Assembly: GCA_007134875.1 (NCBI GenBank)
Contig: SLJY01000199.1
Span: 1-32,677, forward strand
Length of the DNA: 32,677 bases
Reading direction: 5' to 3'
DNA from: Desulfobacterales bacterium
Lineage (GTDB): Bacteria > Desulfobacterota > Desulfobacteria > Desulfobacterales > Desulfosalsimonadaceae
The position numbers were made by a program, and so were the translations under genes. The notes under the pieces are model-generated. The model was not told the DNA's origin. It saw only the letters and a program-made list of their open reading frames with translations, and did not search any database. Shown here piece after piece: positions 6,200 to 28,998 of the stretch; the stretch's first letter is position 1; every line of letters begins with the position of its first letter.

Positions 6200-6874
6200 A
6201 TGGATGCAACCAGCTACCTGGAAAACCTGCCGGACGAAATCATGGTGGCGGTCAACTTCAGCACCGCCTCCGGGGAGATCGTCAAGCAAAACGGCATGGC
6301 CATCAATACCGACCCACCGTCGCTGGAGATCCGGTTCGGGCCGGATTTTCGTATCGATGCCGGAAAACTCGACTATTCGGCCGACTGCCTGGTCTTTATC
6401 GAAACCGGCGAGATCGTCACCCTCATCTGCACCGTGGAAGAAGCGCCGGAACCCAACGCGCTTTTGCTTACCGTGCGCGACCTGGTCCAGCACGTGGAAA
6501 AGCGGGAGTATTTCCGGAGCCCGGCCGACCGGCTTGCCGTCACCTGGTACCGGAAAAACGAGCGGAAGAAAAACCGTCAAAAACACGGCGCAAAAGGGAT
6601 CAATATCAGCAGCGGCGGCATGCTGGTGATGACCGAGGAAACGGTGGACCGCCGGGAGCGCCTGGTTTTCGAGGTGGCCCTGCCCGAGCCGGTCAAAAAG
6701 ACCATTACCTGCGATGCAACCGTCCTGCGCGTGGAAAACGATCCCCTGGGCCGGGTGCTTGTGGCCGTTCGGTTCGAAAACGCCCCTGAAGTCTGCGACG
6801 ATATCATGGGCTACTGTTTTGCCGAGCAGCGCCGCCTTCTCCGGGAGAAGGTGGTGACGAAAGACCTGCTATAA
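6200..6874 (+). CDS. PilZ-domain protein (predicted c-di-GMP receptor)
   Basis: A 224-residue soluble protein with a YcgR-like N-terminal beta domain (about 1-95) and a PilZ domain (about 98-215). The two c-di-GMP binding signatures are visible: KREYFRSP at 101-108, matching the basic RxxxR switch, and NISSGG at 135-140, matching (D/N)xSxxG. It is therefore likely to bind c-di-GMP and act on an unlinked target such as motility or envelope functions. The ATG at 6200 is directly preceded by an in-frame TAA and has no clear Shine-Dalgarno. Its last 71 bp overlap the convergent acyltransferase gene. A diguanylate cyclase lies 2.3 kb away at 9146-10696. Confidence 0.88.
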   Translation: MDATSYLENLPDEIMVAVNFSTASGEIVKQNGMAINTDPPSLEIRFGPDFRIDAGKLDYSADCLVFIETGEIVTLICTVEEAPEPNALLLTVRDLVQHVEKREYFRSPADRLAVTWYRKNERKKNRQKHGAKGINISSGGMLVMTEETVDRRERLVFEVALPEPVKKTITCDATVLRVENDPLGRVLVAVRFENAPEVCDDIMGYCFAEQRRLLREKVVTKDLL

Positions 6875-9023
6875 AACCTTCCACCGCATGAAAAACCCTT
6901 TTCGAGCCCTCTCCATTGACGATTCCGTGGCGCGGCGTATTGACCAGTACGTATTGCTTGTCTTCCGATGATATACCCTTGAATATGCGCATGGAGCCGG
7001 CGGGGTGGACCACCGGGTCGCGGTCGCTCTGGATGATCAGCGCCGGAATGGTTATGGCGGAAAGCTTCGTCTCGAGCTGGCCCATGAGCTTACCCATTTC
7101 CGCAACCCCTGAAATGGGGTTTCGCGTATAGTTGATGTGGGGGTTTTCCGGGTTGTTTTCCACGAAGCGCTTGGATGCCAACGGTACATGGAGCTTACCC
7201 GCCAGGTTGTTCCAGAAATGGACCGCCCCCACGAAGCGCGATGAAAAATCCTGGAGTTTGAGCGGCGCGGAGATGGCGAACACCCCCCTGATATTGTCCG
7301 TGCGCGTGCACAGGTCTAAAACCAACCCCGCCCCGAAGGAAAACCCCCCGGCCACCACGGTCTTGCAGAGATTCGACACGATGGCGTAGCCCTCGGCCAC
7401 GGATTCGGCCCACTCCAGGTGGGCGCGCTGCGCCAGGTCTTCCGGCGCGGTGCCGTGCCCCCGCAGCCGGACCCCGTATACGGGGTATCCGTTTGCCGCG
7501 ATCCGCTCGCCAAGGGCCCGCACCTCCAGGGGGGCGGCCATGTAGCCGTGCACGAGCAGCACCCCGATATCCCGGCGGATTCCCCGGATAAAAAAGGGGG
7601 ATCCCACCGTCTTGGGCTTTGCAGCGGTTTTTTCCGCAAACCGGAAATAGTCCTTTTCGAAATCGATATCTCCCTTTTCCAGGAGATGGCGCCGGATCCG
7701 ATAGCGGATGCGGAGCGACGGCTGCCGGGCGATGGCTTTCAGCATCTCTTGCAGATCGTCCATGGGCTCGATTTCGTTGGCCGCCACCGCGATGGGGTTT
7801 TCGATGCGGATCTGGTGAAAGCCGTGGGCTTTTTCGAAATCATAGATTTTTTTCAGCCGGCCGTCTGTTTCGGACAGCACGCGTTTTTCCACGGCCAGCT
7901 TTATGAAGCTGTCGATGCGCCCGTAGGGATCGTCCGTGAGCAGGCCCACGGGATTGCGGGAGAGGCTCTGGTGGCGGAAGATGCCCAGCTTGTGATAATC
8001 GATCGTTGCAATAGCGAGAAATGCCCGGCGCCGGAGATCCTTTTCACCGATCGTCCGGTGGGGAAAGTGTTTCAAAAGAGTTGCCAGGATGTGATCCGGG
8101 TTGACGGTGGTCATCCGGTAGATGGCGGACATGTAGCGGCCCATGATGCGAAGGGCGGTTTTTCGGAGCATGGGGCGCGAGGCGATGGGGTCGTCGAATC
8201 CGATGGGTTCGTTTGACGCCATGTCCGCCTTAACGGCCCGGGAGTTCATGTATCCGGCCGCCCGGATGGGATCGCCGAAGCGGATGTCCACGTCCACGCC
8301 GGACAGGAGCATGCCGCCTTCCATCATGATCTCTTCGGTCATCCGCCCGGAAACCTCGCCCATGAGCAGTCCGGCCAGCCGGTTGAGGTTGTTCTCCCGG
8401 CCGCGCATGGGGTGGTAGGTGATGTTTACCGGGACGATATGTGTCTGGGTTCGATGAATCGCTTCGGGGTCTTCGATACCGAAGCGGTCCAATATTCGCC
8501 GGGCTTCTTCCGGGTTGTTTTTTTCCATGACGGCCAGTCGGCGGCGGTAGAATTCCGTGCGGAGGCTGAGCGTGGCCGCGCCGGTGCGGGGCGGGTGCAA
8601 CCCGGACGCGGAAAGGATCATGAAGCGCGATTCGTTTTTTCCGCCGGCATCGTAGACTTTCTTGTTTTTCACCATCCGCCCTTCGGGAAATATGATCCAG
8701 GCGGACTCGCCGGTCAGAAGCGAGCGCACGATAAGCCGGTCGCGGTCCGGGTTCTTGTTGGACATCGCGCCCAGGTTTTCAAGTAGTTTGCCGAAGTTCC
8801 CCTTGAACAGGGCGTAGTCCGCAAGGCTCCAGACGGTCAGCCCGGTGATGCGGTTTATGAAATAGGGAAGAAAGATGGTCTCCATGCGGGTGAAGTGGTT
8901 GATGACGAAAATCAGCGACCCCTTCGGAATCTTTTCTTCCCCGTGAATGCGGAAATTCGCCCGCGCCAGCCCCGCCAGCGCACCCACCGCATAACCGGCA
9001 GTATGATAGGCATAATAGTTCAT
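6804..9023 (-). CDS. PlsC-like acyltransferase fused to alpha/beta hydrolase
   Basis: A 739-residue two-enzyme fusion. The N-terminal part (about 20-260) is a glycerolipid acyltransferase: the His box NHFTRMET at 42-49 (HX4E rather than the usual HX4D) and FPEGR at 112-116. A middle region of about 200 residues has no recognised motif. The C-terminal part (about 485-720) is an alpha/beta hydrolase: LLVHGYMAAP forming the oxyanion loop, GFSFG with nucleophile Ser562, a candidate acid in SDRDP near 667-669 and His699. It may both acylate and deacylate lipids, for instance in phospholipid remodelling; that pairing is inference. The start codon abuts a palindromic element whose end supplies an AAGGA about 13 nt upstream. 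The last ~24 codons overlap the PilZ gene antisense. Confidence 0.85.
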   Translation of the reverse strand: MNYYAYHTAGYAVGALAGLARANFRIHGEEKIPKGSLIFVINHFTRMETIFLPYFINRITGLTVWSLADYALFKGNFGKLLENLGAMSNKNPDRDRLIVRSLLTGESAWIIFPEGRMVKNKKVYDAGGKNESRFMILSASGLHPPRTGAATLSLRTEFYRRRLAVMEKNNPEEARRILDRFGIEDPEAIHRTQTHIVPVNITYHPMRGRENNLNRLAGLLMGEVSGRMTEEIMMEGGMLLSGVDVDIRFGDPIRAAGYMNSRAVKADMASNEPIGFDDPIASRPMLRKTALRIMGRYMSAIYRMTTVNPDHILATLLKHFPHRTIGEKDLRRRAFLAIATIDYHKLGIFRHQSLSRNPVGLLTDDPYGRIDSFIKLAVEKRVLSETDGRLKKIYDFEKAHGFHQIRIENPIAVAANEIEPMDDLQEMLKAIARQPSLRIRYRIRRHLLEKGDIDFEKDYFRFAEKTAAKPKTVGSPFFIRGIRRDIGVLLVHGYMAAPLEVRALGERIAANGYPVYGVRLRGHGTAPEDLAQRAHLEWAESVAEGYAIVSNLCKTVVAGGFSFGAGLVLDLCTRTDNIRGVFAISAPLKLQDFSSRFVGAVHFWNNLAGKLHVPLASKRFVENNPENPHINYTRNPISGVAEMGKLMGQLETKLSAITIPALIIQSDRDPVVHPAGSMRIFKGISSEDKQYVLVNTPRHGIVNGEGSKRVFHAVEGFIAGLSSPPSPGEGGAARQNSSP

Positions 9024-9029
9024 ATTTAA

Positions 9030-9158
9030 GGGACGTCCTTAACTTATTAACTTATTAAACAGATATATTCACGGTGTGCATATTTTAGGCAGCATTTTTG
9101 GGTGTCGACGGGTGGTAAGAATTTCTTACGCAATAAGTTAATACGTTAAGGATGTCCC
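9030..9158. repeat. MITE-like element, family 2, copy 1
   Basis: The left end (9030-9056) reads GGGACGTCCTTAACTTATTA and on; the right end (9132-9158) is its reverse complement with two mismatches over 27 bp. The interior of about 75 bp is unrelated to the interior of the second copy at 12585-12722. The left end touches the acyltransferase start codon region and the right end contains the TAA stop (9146-9148) of the diguanylate cyclase gene. No transposase is present; mobilisation in trans, for example by a REP-associated Y1 transposase, is inference. Confidence 0.85.
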
Positions 9159-10696
9159 CCAATTCCCTGACCAATTCCCCGGCGGACCTTGTTTCTGCCG
9201 GCCTGCTTGGCCTTGTAGAGAGCGCTGTCGGCCTGGGAAACCAACTCGTCGGAGGCGGACCCGGGATTCGGAATGGCGCTGGAAACGCCGAAGCTTGCCG
9301 TCAGGTACAGGGAGGGAAGGTGGTCGCCCTGCTCGATTCTTAGACCGGATACTGCGCGCCTGATTTTTTCCGCAAGTTTCATCGCCCCGTCTCCGTCGGT
9401 TTCCGGCAGCACGAGGATAAACTCTTCCCCGCCGTAGCGCGCAACCAGGTCCCCGGGCCGGTGGCACTGCTCCTTCAGGGTCCGGGCCACTTGCTGAAGG
9501 ACGTCGTCTCCAGCCTGGTGCCCGTAATTGTCGTTGTACTCCTTGAAATGATCGATATCCGCCATGACCAGGGAAATCGGGCGGCCGTCGCGCGCCATAC
9601 GCTGCCATTCCTTTTCCAGGTGCTCCTTCAGGCGCCTTCGGTTGGCCAGTCCGGTCAATCCGTCCGTATTCGAAAGATCTTTAACGGACTGGTAATGGCG
9701 CGCATTTTCAATGGCCAGTCCGCATATCCCGGAAATTCTGGCGGCCAGTTTCTTGTACCGGTCGATATGTTCGGGCACTGCCACGCCGGCAATTGTCAAT
9801 TCGCCGATGGCTCCGCCGCCGCCGTCGATGGACAGGGTGAATCCGTTATCAGGTGAAACGGGGTCTTTTCGCCGCTTTTCGTATTGAGCGTCATCAGTCC
9901 TGGTAAAATGGACTGATGACGGGGCGAAAAGCATCATGCACATTTCCCGGATTCCGTCGATCACCTCGTCCTCGGATCGCATCCGCACCAGCTTGTTGAG
10001 CAGGTCCAGGGCCATGAGAAAATCGGCCAGTTCCTTCCGGCTACGGTTGATTTCCGATTCATCCGGCGGTGGTTTGTCTTCTATACGGATTTTCAGGATG
10101 GCATTGATGACCAGAAGTTCGAAATAATCCGTCCCCACCGGCACAGCCATCCACGGGAGCCCGATATAATCGGAGAAATCTTTCAGGTTTTCGGTGGCAG
10201 CGGGATCGACGCCGGTATCCAGCAGCAGGATTCCGGAAGACCATTGCCGGAAAAAGGGTTTGACCGTTTGTTCGTCAAACCCCCAGCCCGAAATGATTTC
10301 CCGCCAGCGGGCCAGCCAACCGGGGGTGAGCGTGTAGTAGCCCATCCGGGCATAGTGGTCCGCCAGATCGGGGCTGATCAGGAGATGGAGGCAGTGTTTT
10401 ATCCGGAACCTCGACTGCCCGCCGATGATATGATGCTTTGCCGGTATTTCGGCGATGCACTCTCCCACGGCGACATGAAGCTCATCCACCGGGTTCTCGG
10501 TGAAAGTGACCCCGGCGGGAAGACCGGGTATATCGGTGTTTTTCAACGCTTTCAACTTTGCCGGATGCATGCCGCAGCGGCCCTTGAAAAACAACACGCT
10601 CACGTCGGGATACTTTGACAAAAGCCCCAGTGCTTCGATTTCTTTTCGGTATGTTTCGCAAACCGCCAGTGTTTGCCTGGGTGACGTGCTGTTCAA
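9146..10696 (-). CDS. DUF1638-GAF-GGDEF protein (predicted diguanylate cyclase)
   Basis: A 516-residue soluble protein with three parts. Residues 5-200 resemble DUF1638, a family usually found as a stand-alone protein beside corrinoid methyltransferases; recognisable elements are YYTLTPGW at 120-127 and GILLLDTG at 155-162, followed by a predicted strand with VPVGTDYFELL. Residues 225-340 look like a GAF domain. Residues 341-508 are a GGDEF domain with the active-site GGEEF at 422-426 and the inhibitory I-site RPGD at 413-416, five residues ahead, so it should make c-di-GMP from two GTP and be product-inhibited. It is the third gene of the corrinoid operon, 31 bp after the methyltransferase. 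The last residues (Gly-Gly-His-Pro) and the stop are encoded inside a MITE end, so the original C-terminus was probably different. Confidence 0.88.
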   Translation of the reverse strand: MNSTSPRQTLAVCETYRKEIEALGLLSKYPDVSVLFFKGRCGMHPAKLKALKNTDIPGLPAGVTFTENPVDELHVAVGECIAEIPAKHHIIGGQSRFRIKHCLHLLISPDLADHYARMGYYTLTPGWLARWREIISGWGFDEQTVKPFFRQWSSGILLLDTGVDPAATENLKDFSDYIGLPWMAVPVGTDYFELLVINAILKIRIEDKPPPDESEINRSRKELADFLMALDLLNKLVRMRSEDEVIDGIREMCMMLFAPSSVHFTRTDDAQYEKRRKDPVSPDNGFTLSIDGGGGAIGELTIAGVAVPEHIDRYKKLAARISGICGLAIENARHYQSVKDLSNTDGLTGLANRRRLKEHLEKEWQRMARDGRPISLVMADIDHFKEYNDNYGHQAGDDVLQQVARTLKEQCHRPGDLVARYGGEEFILVLPETDGDGAMKLAEKIRRAVSGLRIEQGDHLPSLYLTASFGVSSAIPNPGSASDELVSQADSALYKAKQAGRNKVRRGIGQGIGGHP

Positions 10697-10727
10697 TGAA
10701 TCATCCTATCAGCGTTGAATGGGGTAG

Positions 10728-11786
10728 CTATATTAGGGGATAGCCGCCGTGCCGGTGTACGGCTTCCGACACGGCCGAAAGAACGGTTTCCGGCACATGC
10801 CAGGGAATTTCCCCGTGGTTATCCGCCAAAATGAAACCGCCCCCGGGCGCCGCTTCCGCAATGGCCTTCCGGACGGCGAAGATCGCATCCCCGCGGCTCC
10901 AGCGAATCATTTCCAGGCCGTTGAGATTGCCAATAATGGTCAGCTTCCCTTTGCAGGCTTGTTTGAGCGCTTCCAGGTTATCGTCCGCGCTGACGCCGAT
11001 CCCCGCGGTTCCCGTTTGCGCGATGTCGTCTGCTACTTCCAGGGCGGCTCCCGATGCAAGGTGGGTGGCAGTGGGCCCGTTGATCCGTGCAATGGTTCGG
11101 CCTGCCACGATATGCCCGGTTTCAAGATACAGCTTCCGGGGGATGATCGTGGGGGATGCTACCGGGTCGAAGTAGCAGATTGCCGTGGCACCTTCGGCAA
11201 TCTGGGCGTTGGCCCAATCGGCGCAAAACGTTTCGTTGATTTCCATCATCTCCCAAAAAAGCGACGGCTCCCGGTAGAGCAGTTCGATATAGGTGGAAAA
11301 GCCCATCTGCATGATCGGTACGGAAAAGGGGGAGATCACCACGCCCATCACGGGGATGTCTCCCGCGGCTTTTTCGGCGAGAATCCGCGTGGTTTTGAGC
11401 ACTTCCCCGAGTCCCGGGGCACCTTCGATACCGGGCGGTTTCAGCCGGGGGATCTGTGCGGCGGGCTTGTCGATGAAGGGCCTTCCCGAGTTGGGCGGGC
11501 CGTTGTCAAAATAAACGACATCTCCGCCCCAGGCCGCGATTTCCATCGGGGCGTGAAAAAACGCAAACAGGCAGTCGTGCCGGTATTTTTCCTGCATGCG
11601 CAGCTGGGCTTCGGCCACGTTTTCCCCGTTGGAAAAATAGTCCCTGATGGGCATCTTCATTTCCCTGGCCCCGTGGGTCGTCAGCAGAAGGAAAAACGGC
11701 ACCCTGTCGGGTTCCTTATGATCCATGGCGCAGAGCATGCGCTCCATGGGGGTCATTGTATATTGCCTATCGGTTTGCAGGCTCAT
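10728..11786 (-). CDS. Uroporphyrinogen decarboxylase-family corrinoid methyltransferase
   Basis: A 352-residue TIM-barrel protein of the UroD/MtaA/CmuA/MtvB superfamily, expected to move a methyl group to or from the corrinoid protein encoded just upstream. The N-terminus MTPMERMLCAMDHKEPDRVPF is the family hallmark. In MtaA/MtbA-type enzymes zinc is bound by His-X-Cys and a later Cys in a Gly-Cys motif; here the aligned positions read Arg-Ile-Asn (234-236) and ADNHGEIP (321-328), so those ligands are missing. It may be a methyl-donor-specific enzyme of the O-demethylase type or use another metal site. A long upstream extension in this frame is a shadow of the corrinoid gene; the ATG at 11786 overlaps the upstream TGA as TGATG, indicating translational coupling. 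Confidence 0.85.
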   Translation of the reverse strand: MSLQTDRQYTMTPMERMLCAMDHKEPDRVPFFLLLTTHGAREMKMPIRDYFSNGENVAEAQLRMQEKYRHDCLFAFFHAPMEIAAWGGDVVYFDNGPPNSGRPFIDKPAAQIPRLKPPGIEGAPGLGEVLKTTRILAEKAAGDIPVMGVVISPFSVPIMQMGFSTYIELLYREPSLFWEMMEINETFCADWANAQIAEGATAICYFDPVASPTIIPRKLYLETGHIVAGRTIARINGPTATHLASGAALEVADDIAQTGTAGIGVSADDNLEALKQACKGKLTIIGNLNGLEMIRWSRGDAIFAVRKAIAEAAPGGGFILADNHGEIPWHVPETVLSAVSEAVHRHGGYPLI

Positions 11787-12451
11787 CACAGGCGTCCTTC
11801 CGCTGCCATTTGGACGATCGGCAGGGCGTCTGAAGCGCTTTTCCCCGCAGCATCCGCGCCGACATCCTTCCAGAGCTGCGCATCCAGACGAAAGGGGGCT
11901 CCTCCGACGGCGATCCGGGTGTTGCACTGTTCGCTGCGAAGCCGGTGGATAACCTCTTTGACCTCCATGGCCGAAGCGATCATCAGAACGGAGATGAAAA
12001 GCAACTCCAGGCGATCTTCGACCACCCGCCGGACCAGGTCGCCGGTTTCCATGCGCCCGTAATCCAGAATGTCGTATCCGGCTCCCCGCAGGACGGAATA
12101 AACGATCTGCTTTCCCAGGCCGTGATAGTCGTTTAAGACAACGATGGCCATCCTGGGCCCCGGATTCCGAAACCCGGTATTTTTTGCCAGAACCGAGTCC
12201 ACCAGTTCTTCGCAGATCCGGCCGCTGATATAGACCTGGGAAAGGGAATAGTCCTGATTTGCCCACCCCATGCCGATGTCGTCCAGCGCCGGGACGATCA
12301 CTGTTTCCACGAATTCAAGGGGGGTGTTCTGCCTTGTGAAGTCAGACAGGATCCGCTGGGCGGCTTCTTCGTCGCAAGATATCAGGGCATCCCGGAAGGC
12401 ATCCGATGAGGCGGTTTTTTGTTCGTTTTCTTCTGTCATTCGTTGTTTCAT
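11786..12451 (-). CDS. Corrinoid (B12-binding) methyltransferase subunit, MtaC/MtbC-like
   Basis: A 221-residue protein with a helical cap domain (about 15-95) and a Rossmann B12 domain (100-215). The signature NDYHGLG at 107-113 contains Asp-X-His-X-X-Gly with the lower-ligand His110, and VGGAPF near 182 is the second cobalamin loop. It should carry a methyl group on cobalt between a donor-specific methyltransferase and an acceptor enzyme. First gene of a three-gene operon with its own promoter. ATG at 12451 is taken; a second in-frame ATG four codons on is equally possible because neither has a strong Shine-Dalgarno. No corrinoid-reactivating ATPase is in the window. Confidence 0.92.
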   Translation of the reverse strand: MKQRMTEENEQKTASSDAFRDALISCDEEAAQRILSDFTRQNTPLEFVETVIVPALDDIGMGWANQDYSLSQVYISGRICEELVDSVLAKNTGFRNPGPRMAIVVLNDYHGLGKQIVYSVLRGAGYDILDYGRMETGDLVRRVVEDRLELLFISVLMIASAMEVKEVIHRLRSEQCNTRIAVGGAPFRLDAQLWKDVGADAAGKSASDALPIVQMAAEGRL

Positions 12452-26504: not shown

Positions 26505-27121
26505 AGCAGGTAATCGTTTCCCCCCGGCGGTGCGTGGGCTGCATGCAGTGCGTGGTCGCGTGCGCCGTGGCCCACAGCCGGTCCGGGGATCTGCCCGGGG
26601 CGCTTGCCGAGTCGCCCCGTCCGAACCCGCGCATTCACGTGGGAGCGGGGATTTATCACGAGGGGTTTCCCAACCGGTGCCGGCATTGCAATCCCGCACC
26701 CTGCATGGCGGCCTGTCTCCCCGGGGCCATCTACCGGGAGAGCAAAACGGACAGCGTCCTGGTCAACCCCGATGTGTGCATCAATTGTGCATCGTGCGCG
26801 ATGGCATGCCCCTACGGGGTGATCCGCTACCGGCCGGACCCGCTGATCCGCTCCGGAAACACCGTGGCGATCAAGTGCGACAACTGCGTGGCCCGGCAGC
26901 ACAAGGGGCTTGATACCGCCTGCACGGAAGCGTGCAAAACAGGGGCCCTCGTGTTCGGTGAGCTGGATGCGGCCATGAAGCGCGAAACCGAACGGGTCGC
27001 CCGGTCCATGACGCCAGGCCCGGAAGCGTGGGCGCTCCATCCGGAAACGGAGCCGCTTCTGGCGCACAAACGGGCGATCGTGAATATGAATCACCAGGAA
27101 GAGGGGAGGTCGTCGTCATGA
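26501..27121 (+). CDS. cooF: CooF-like ferredoxin with four [4Fe-4S] cluster motifs
   Basis: A 206-residue iron-sulfur protein with four Cys sets: CVGCMQCVVAC (11-21), CRHCNPAPCMAAC (60-72), CINCASCAMAC (93-103) and a last one beginning CDNC with a longer internal spacing to CTEAC. This is the HycB/DmsB/CooF plan. It should take electrons from the CooS D-cluster and pass them on. The ATG overlaps the upstream stop as ATGA, with CGGAGGA as ribosome binding site; its own stop overlaps the cooS start in the same way. No energy-converting hydrogenase genes are near, so the flavoprotein is the likely partner. Confidence 0.9.
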   Translation: MKQVIVSPRRCVGCMQCVVACAVAHSRSGDLPGALAESPRPNPRIHVGAGIYHEGFPNRCRHCNPAPCMAACLPGAIYRESKTDSVLVNPDVCINCASCAMACPYGVIRYRPDPLIRSGNTVAIKCDNCVARQHKGLDTACTEACKTGALVFGELDAAMKRETERVARSMTPGPEAWALHPETEPLLAHKRAIVNMNHQEEGRSSS

Positions 27122-28998
27122 CGCATCACCATACCAGAAGTATTGCAAAGGACGCCCGGATCCTGATCCAAAAGGCGGAAAACGACCAGGTGGAGACGGT
27201 CTGGGATCGCCACGACGCACAGCAGCCGCACTGCGGGTTCTGCGAAATGGGATTGAGCTGCCGGATTTGTGCCATGGGGCCGTGCCGCGTGGATCCTTTC
27301 GGGGAAGGCCCGCAGCTGGGGGTGTGCGGTGCGAACGGCGATATCATCGTGGCCAGGAACCTCTGCCGGATGGTGGCCGCGGGCGCCGCTTCCCATTCGG
27401 ACCACGGCCGCGATCTCGTGGAAGTGCTGGCCTCCGTGGCGGAAAGCAAGGCGTCGGGCTACGAGATCCGGGATACGGAGAAGCTTTTCCGGGTGGCCGC
27501 CGAGTACGGCGTGGAAACCGGCGATAAGGAGCCCCTCCGGGTCGCCGCCGAACTGGCCTATGCTATGCAGGAGGATTACGGCACCCGAAAAAAGGAGCTG
27601 ACGCTCACGGCTCGGGCCCCGGAGAAGCGCAGGGATCTCTGGCGCAAGGCCGGCATCATGCCCCGGGGGATCGACCGGGAGACAGCCGAGGCCATGCACC
27701 GGACGCACATGGGTGTGGACAGCGTCTGGCAGAGCGTCCTTGAGCACAGCCTCCGAAACGCGCTTTCGGACGGATGGGGCGGGTCCATGATCGCAACCGA
27801 GGTCTCGGACATCCTGTTCGGCACGCCCGCCCCCGCCGCCACGAAGGTCAACGCCGGGGTCCTGAAGGCCGACAGCGTCAACGTGGTGGTCCATGGTCAC
27901 AATCCGGTGGTCTCGGAAATGATCCTCGTCGCCTGCCAGGATCCGGAGATGACGAAACTGGCGGAGGAAAAAGGGGCCGCCGGCATCAATCTGTGCGGGG
28001 TCTGCTGCACGGGCAACGAACTGCTCATGCGCCACGGGATCCCCATGGCCGGAAACCACCTCATGACCGAGCTGATCATCACCACCGGGGCGGTCGACAT
28101 GATGGTGGTCGACTACCAGTGCATCATGCCTTCGCTTTCAAAAGTCGCATCCTGTTATCATACCAAGATGATCAGCACCAGCGACAAGGCGCATTTCCCC
28201 GGCGTTCCCCACATGGAATTCCACCCGGAAAACGCCCGGGACATGGCCTACGAGGTGGTGGAGCGCGCCATTGACAATTTCGTCAATCGCGGCACCGTAC
28301 ATATCCCCGTGGAGCCGGTGGACGCGGTGGGCGGTTTTTCCGTGGAAGCGGTGCTTGGCGCGCTCTGCGGGTCGCCCGGCCCCCTGATAGACGCCATTTC
28401 GGCCGGCAGCATCCGTGGCGCGGTGGGCATCGTCGGCTGCAACAATCCGAAAATCAAACAGGATCACGGCCATGTGACCCTGGCCCGGCTGCTGATCGAA
28501 AACGATATCCTGGTCGTTGACACGGGGTGCGCGGCCGTGGCAACGGCCAAGGCGGGGTTCAAGACGGCCGGGGCCGCGGCCGATGCCGGGGCCGGGTTGC
28601 GGGGCGTGTGCGAGTCTTTGGGGATCCCGCCGGTGCTTCATTTCGGCTCCTGCGTGGACAACGTGCGCATCCTGGTGCTGGCGGCCGCCCTGGCCAACGC
28701 CCTGGAGGCGGATATCAGCGATCTTCCCCTGGCCGCGGCCGCCCCGGAGTGGTACTCGGAAAAAGCCGTGGCTATCGGGGCATATGCCGTGGCATCGGGG
28801 ATTTACACGGTTTTAGGCCCCATGCCGCCGGTTACCGGCTCCGTGAAGGTCGTGGAAATGCTGACATCCGGCCTGGAAGGGGCCGTGGGAGCGGTTTTTG
28901 CCGTGGAGCCGGACCCGGAAAAAGCGGCAGTCCTGATCCGGCGCCATATCGAGAAGCAGCGCGGGAAGCTGGGGCTCGACGAAATCGAAGGCATATGA
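27118..28998 (+). CDS. cooS: Anaerobic Ni-CO dehydrogenase catalytic subunit CooS
   Basis: A 626-residue enzyme, normal length for a monofunctional CODH, which oxidises CO to CO2. B-cluster ligands are Cys48, Cys51, Cys56 and Cys70. C-cluster ligands are recognisable at about His261 (HGHNP), Cys296 (GVCCTGNE), Cys335 (YQCIMP), Cys441 (GCNNP), Cys471 (DTGCAA) and Cys512 (FGSCVDN). For the D-cluster, Cys39 and Cys42 are present but position 47 is Ser (HCGFCEMGLSC), a CX2C form rather than CX7C. The ATG at 27118 overlaps the cooF stop and has GGGGAGG upstream; a longer in-frame start is a shadow in cooF. No acetyl-CoA synthase and no CooC nickel-insertion gene are in the window. Confidence 0.97.
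   Translation: MTHHHTRSIAKDARILIQKAENDQVETVWDRHDAQQPHCGFCEMGLSCRICAMGPCRVDPFGEGPQLGVCGANGDIIVARNLCRMVAAGAASHSDHGRDLVEVLASVAESKASGYEIRDTEKLFRVAAEYGVETGDKEPLRVAAELAYAMQEDYGTRKKELTLTARAPEKRRDLWRKAGIMPRGIDRETAEAMHRTHMGVDSVWQSVLEHSLRNALSDGWGGSMIATEVSDILFGTPAPAATKVNAGVLKADSVNVVVHGHNPVVSEMILVACQDPEMTKLAEEKGAAGINLCGVCCTGNELLMRHGIPMAGNHLMTELIITTGAVDMMVVDYQCIMPSLSKVASCYHTKMISTSDKAHFPGVPHMEFHPENARDMAYEVVERAIDNFVNRGTVHIPVEPVDAVGGFSVEAVLGALCGSPGPLIDAISAGSIRGAVGIVGCNNPKIKQDHGHVTLARLLIENDILVVDTGCAAVATAKAGFKTAGAAADAGAGLRGVCESLGIPPVLHFGSCVDNVRILVLAAALANALEADISDLPLAAAAPEWYSEKAVAIGAYAVASGIYTVLGPMPPVTGSVKVVEMLTSGLEGAVGAVFAVEPDPEKAAVLIRRHIEKQRGKLGLDEIEGI

Follow-up and report, generated by a model that had tools for sequence, protein, structure and literature searches.

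The window analysed here is a 32,677-nucleotide stretch of DNA from a Desulfobacterales bacterium (GCA_007134875.1, contig SLJY01000199.1), the minus strand of which carries three contiguous genes that we call the trio. In order of transcription these encode a corrinoid-binding protein with a B12-binding_2 cap and a B12-binding domain (11786..12451; PF02310, 54.7 bits; PF02607, 42.4 bits), a UROD-family, MtaA/CmuA-like methyltransferase (10728..11786; PF01208, 170.1 bits), and a sensor protein of 516 amino acids with a TTG start (9146..10696), a predicted diguanylate cyclase in which DUF1638, GAF-like and GGDEF domains are fused. The ATG of the UROD gene overlaps the stop codon of the corrinoid gene (TGATG) and 31 bp separate the UROD stop codon from the TTG start of the sensor, confirming the spacing given in an original prediction that had been made from the window's letters alone.

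That prediction had also placed a DUF1638-like region at the N terminus of the sensor and a complete GGDEF domain in the same frame, and both assignments hold in profile searches. PF07796 matches residues 69-194 above its cut-off of 27 (40.1 bits, E 4.5e-10), with the TPGW and LLLDTG motifs at positions 124 and 157, and this match together with the limits of our own profile delimits a DUF1638 domain at residues 7-204 (10085..10678, minus strand). Four cysteines of this domain together resemble a putative metal site: of 28 sensor DUF1638 domains, all have Cys13 and Cys41, 27 have Cys80 and 26 have Cys102. The GGDEF domain (9188..9670, minus strand) is matched by PF00990 over residues 343-503 (179.9 bits, E 4.1e-53) and retains an intact GGEEF active site at 422 and an intact RxxD I-site (RPGD) at 413; it shares 46-52% identity with the GGDEF domains of WspR structures and is predicted to make cyclic di-GMP (c-di-GMP). 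Between the two lies the part common to all members of the family (residues 216-340; 9677..10051, minus strand), which was matched by no Pfam model at E<1, just as a family member built on this domain without DUF1638 gave no Pfam match at 0.01. The earlier label of a GAF-like region thus survives as the description of a conserved, unnamed domain that resembles GAF in its sequence pattern and in a weak structural comparison, but not as a profile assignment. Structure searches with a model of the full-length sensor returned lists filled by GGDEF entries and gave little information on the first 240 residues. For the model of the DUF1638 domain alone (pTM 0.83), Foldseek gave no match at E<=0.001; its best match in a second look was the PrpR sensor domain (2pju) at a Z score of 5.9, which is below a trustworthy level. 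Among solved structures, a profile covering DUF1638 and the GAF-like part likewise had no relative.

In the corrinoid protein, DYHGLG represents the DxHxxG cobalt-ligand motif, which is kept in 14 aligned trio members; its score against TIGR02370 (70 bits) is below the cut-off of 215.3, as is that of the UROD protein against TIGR01463, the MtaA/CmuA family (89.9 bits, cut-off 235.4), and neither protein reaches any NCBIfam cut-off. The UROD protein matches MtaA (PDB 4ay7) over nearly its full length (E 1.3e-10) and shares the UROD fold, whereas the zinc ligands HxC and C of MtaA are replaced in trio members by THxASG and DNHGEIP (HxC to HxA, C to H), and the identity of a CoM-type methyltransferase was rejected on these grounds. 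The motif E-x14-E-x20-H of O-demethylase MT I proteins was found in 0 of 48 sequences. The replaced zinc site and the missing motif both favor a reading in which the unit senses the corrinoid cofactor itself, as B12 supply or redox state, with a UROD protein that serves for binding, as a scaffold, and has no enzymatic part, and B12-binding regulators such as CarH provide a precedent. The UROD subfamily, however, has many invariant residues (67% mean column identity among 16 trio UROD proteins), which suggests a specific active site, and we consider a pure cofactor sensor improbable.

To survey the trio in three classes, all of them inside the window's own phylum, we used a profile built from these 16 UROD proteins. 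It matched 36 of 389 genomes of the order (E 1e-104 to 1e-199), as well as 2 of 42 and 17 of 127 genomes in two other classes. Among the resulting 55 genomes 52 loci were read, and in all 52 a corrinoid gene stands upstream of the UROD gene and a gene for a GAF-like protein, with or without DUF1638, stands downstream. The three genomes outside this count are G847 and G871, both among the 17, and G297, the last with a partial UROD gene that a sensor match adjoins by its coordinates. In two genomes whose contigs end shortly after the UROD gene (G153, G277), enough of the sensor's opening codons is left to identify it. The original prediction had named two findings that would refute it, a missing DUF1638 match and fusions that are common and always away from corrinoid genes; neither holds, for the match exceeds its cut-off, and corrinoid and UROD genes stand beside the fusion in every locus read. 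In a second class, the genomes that carry the trio include near-complete ones and ones on a single contig. In G071 and G251 the UROD gene is interrupted or shortened (L190:7909-9008, L195:6368-6781), while the corrinoid and sensor genes are still open.

The nearest relative of the window's fusion, on SLPT01000298.1 (L003/L126) of a Desulfobacteraceae bin, is 83% identical over its full length and lies in the same trio. A scan of the genome contigs with the full-length sensor recovered mainly unrelated GGDEF proteins and one true relative. Across the class, however, long proteins with DUF1638 turned up in numerous families, and among the trio loci read that of G902 encodes another DUF1638-GAF-GGDEF protein. 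A one-off fusion was therefore rejected, given these class-wide relatives and the presence of the trio in many genomes. The possibility that the genes are chance neighbors was likewise rejected, both by the constant gene order and by a control with PF01208 covering 30 loci in eight genomes. Here all eight trio loci carry the sensor, whereas none of the 22 other PF01208 loci of the same genomes has a histidine kinase, GGDEF or GAF-like match within 1.5 kb; two of the 22 do carry a DUF1638 gene, and both run on into a kinase gene.

A rival explanation of these loci is that the corrinoid/UROD pair carries out metabolic demethylation and that the sensor is a linked regulator of the ordinary kind, which responds to something else, such as a GAF ligand or redox, and tunes behavior during substrate use. 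Linked sensor kinases of this sort are known, both in the mec cassette, where MecA has a PocR domain (PMC9768040), and among methyltransferase-associated kinases such as RdmS of Methanosarcina (cited in PMC11619418); moreover, an activase and methyl acceptors are encoded elsewhere in the window's genome (L127, L262). Nonetheless, an activase, a methyltetrahydrofolate methyltransferase, a second UROD gene and a second corrinoid gene are all missing from the 36 trio loci (476 kb) when judged by similarity to this genome's own copies, the flanking genes differ from genome to genome, and the UROD subfamily is never without the sensor gene in the loci read. In three genomes (G254, G219, G280) the trio UROD is the sole PF01208 protein. 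Because neither an activase nor a second methyltransferase lies near the 36 trios and the trio UROD is without a paralog in these three genomes, the corrinoid/UROD pair looks dedicated to signalling. We conclude that the trio is a stand-alone three-gene unit, as opposed to a methyltransferase operon to which a regulator has been added, and we regard the demethylation account as unlikely, although it deserves to be taken seriously.

To ask which part of the sensor is constant, we searched the order sample of 389 genomes with a profile of its first 341 residues. The whole region was matched in 17 genomes and the GAF-like part only, from about residue 198 onward, in 18 more. The GAF-only proteins hold the same place directly after the corrinoid and UROD genes, making the GAF-like domain the invariant partner; DUF1638 is optional and is absent from about half of these systems (18/35). 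Outputs are interchangeable between GGDEF, histidine kinase and a Cys-rich tail. According to Pfam, the partner of DUF1638 in the fusions is either GGDEF or a histidine kinase, the latter with PAS, receiver and Hpt parts that vary between proteins. The genes of these fusions all directly follow a UROD gene that itself follows a corrinoid gene, while two GAF-only proteins have a kinase (L191, L194) and others end in the Cys-rich tail (SGLxPICSHCKKxRDDxGYW...). The usual output is a histidine kinase and c-di-GMP is a minority output. Thus, of the proposal that the corrinoid system sets c-di-GMP production, the link between a corrinoid pair and signalling is conserved and stands, but DUF1638 has turned out to be optional, the output is usually a kinase and the unit stands alone. 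GAF-GGDEF copies also lie about 10 kb from two trios (L189, L193). Deep branches of the UROD tree are weakly supported and that of G052 is very long, and for this reason we do not read from it when DUF1638 was gained or lost.

The Cys-rich C-terminal tail (PICSHCKKxRDDxGYWxQ...HGICxxCA), which has no Pfam name, closes many GAF-like proteins and other sensory proteins nearby (for example L189:6536-7270, L192:5902-6630 and L195:5655-6356), and is possibly a zinc module.

Outside the fusion, DUF1638 keeps similar company. The window's genome (G000; 2.9 Mb in 231 contigs) has one other DUF1638 gene, a stand-alone copy (L127) with an AcsV/RamA-like activase on one side and a methyltetrahydrofolate:corrinoid methyltransferase (MeTr) on the other, and 25 of 39 stand-alone loci adjoin corrinoid, UROD, activase or MeTr genes. 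Stand-alone domains retain Cys13, Cys80 and Cys102 (8/8 each), and a Leu-His or Met-His pair takes the place of Cys41. A Phaeobacter DUF1638 protein (PGA1_c13340), required there for making methionine by the B12-dependent route, has a fitness phenotype with B12-dependent methionine synthase, and no specific function is proposed for it (PMC5764234); DUF1638 is also described as more abundant during growth on methylated N-osmolytes (PMC12478193). DUF1638 is also fused to Hydantoinase_A-type ATPase-fold proteins (L152:5671-8523, L153:6598-9411, L154:6825-9575), N-terminally in two and C-terminally in one, which hints at a role for the family.

These associations invite the explanation that DUF1638 is a maintenance part, which reactivates the corrinoid reductively or repairs it, and no receiver, so that the GAF-like domain alone would take up the corrinoid/UROD signal. 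The position between activase and MeTr, found in this genome and in many relatives, the Hydantoinase_A-type fusions, and the activation-linked phenotype in Phaeobacter (PMC5764234) all agree with this, as do the GAF-only members, which retain the same corrinoid and UROD genes. Against it stands a diverged lineage in which the domains are unfused and a kinase or cyclase gene comes directly after DUF1638: the order is corrinoid-UROD-DUF1638-histidine kinase in L263, L264, L267, L128, L299 and L300 and corrinoid-UROD-DUF1638-GGDEF in L266, with gene ends that mostly overlap or abut and, in the output proteins of L263 and L266, an N-terminal region that is GAF-like by eye. The fused lineage holds DUF1638 and the output in one covalent chain, an arrangement that a maintenance role by itself does not call for. 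That the order of input enzyme, DUF1638 and output persists whether the parts are fused or separate speaks for a coupling of DUF1638 to the signal, and we consider a purely maintaining role improbable.

Several known systems come close to the trio or to parts of it. The PGA1_c13340-type proteins share the DUF1638 family and have corrinoid proteins and activases as neighbors (PMC5764234); however, the known DUF1638 proteins of corrinoid activation are stand-alone, lack a signalling output and carry the Leu/Met-His pair where the sensor clade has Cys41. RdmS-type kinases of Methanosarcina are GAF-bearing sensor kinases encoded near corrinoid methyltransferases, as in the trio. MsmS is a further methyltransferase-associated sensor kinase of Methanosarcina. 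For these kinases, by contrast, redox sensing by way of heme or thiols is reported, and the accounts consulted mention neither an obligate corrinoid/UROD pair nor DUF1638. MecA of the mec (dichloromethane) cassette is likewise a histidine kinase inside a corrinoid and MtaA/CmuA operon, but its sensory domain is PocR, and its cassette is a complete catabolic one that includes MTII and, in the majority of strains, genes for reactivation (PMC9768040). WspR-type cyclases share the GGDEF domain with GGEEF and RxxD, yet their input is a receiver domain in place of DUF1638 and a GAF-like domain. In the part of the literature covered, with most subscription journals outside it, we found no published account of an obligate corrinoid/UROD/sensor unit and no description of DUF1638 fused to signalling domains.

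Conservation strongly supports a link between the corrinoid methyl-transfer pair and signalling, and the reading that we favor, with a modest degree of confidence, is that the trio as a whole is devoted to sensing, with a UROD/corrinoid front end, a DUF1638 domain that docks the corrinoid protein and a swappable output. In this mechanism the UROD-type methyltransferase would use a methylated compound of the cytosol as donor and load the methyl group onto its own corrinoid protein. DUF1638, which elsewhere lies beside corrinoid activases and methyltransferases, would dock the corrinoid protein and respond to its methyl-Co(III), Co(I) or Co(II) state, and the GAF-like domain together with a coiled coil would relay the change to the output, which in the window protein is a GGDEF domain that would make c-di-GMP. 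The linkage and the domain anatomy are observed; we infer the methyl transfer, the docking, the ligand, the signal that is read and the sign of the response, and likewise that the corrinoid state may set c-di-GMP levels. Several points weigh against this sensory reading. The UROD protein is without the HxC/C zinc site of MtaA, leaving its substrate and its methyl-transfer activity unproven; DUF1638 cannot be the sole signal receiver, because many members are without it; and the DUF1638 model fits no solved fold clearly, so that we claim none for it. The pair could also still be a co-regulated enzyme pair with its real partner genes elsewhere. The DUF1638/GAF-like corrinoid/UROD unit appears to be new in the literature covered, the kinds of signalling protein that it uses are already known, and there is a fair chance that it represents a new sensor class. 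Its fullest form, a class of cytosolic sensors in which a dedicated corrinoid methyltransferase reaction would itself be the act of sensing, so that the methylation of a private corrinoid protein reports a methylated substrate and is relayed through DUF1638 and the GAF-like domain to interchangeable c-di-GMP or phosphorelay outputs, is put forward tentatively, as plausible and somewhat short of probable.

Other genes of the window lie outside the trio. A PilZ-domain protein, a possible c-di-GMP receptor, is encoded on the plus strand (6200..6874; PF07238, 30.2 bits, cut-off 22.5). The original prediction had pointed to it as a receptor 2.3 kb away; the PilZ match is real, but as a neighbor it is seen only in the same genus, where the relative has a PilZ-like open reading frame (L126:1762-2433), and it stands outside the conserved unit. 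Adjoining the trio is a 739-residue acyltransferase fused to an alpha/beta hydrolase (6804-9023); the order is the same in the nearest relative. Further off lie the beta subunit of a Na+-transporting oxaloacetate decarboxylase (684-2989), with a weak gamma-like neighbor, and a prismane/CO dehydrogenase family protein (27028-28998; PF03063, 604 bits). The only other corrinoid methyl-transfer cluster of the window's genome (L262:1194-5797) comprises a UROD-like protein, a methyltetrahydrofolate methyltransferase-corrinoid domain fusion and an activase.

If the sensory reading is true, bacteria would sense methylated compounds, or the B12-dependent one-carbon (C1) state, by a single step of chemistry on a private corrinoid protein, and the result of that step would feed c-di-GMP or two-component signalling. 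Since genomes of a second class that are near-complete or consist of a single contig also carry it, the unit becomes testable beyond fragmented metagenome bins, and DUF1638 would gain a testable role, namely to dock corrinoid proteins and to report on their state or control it.

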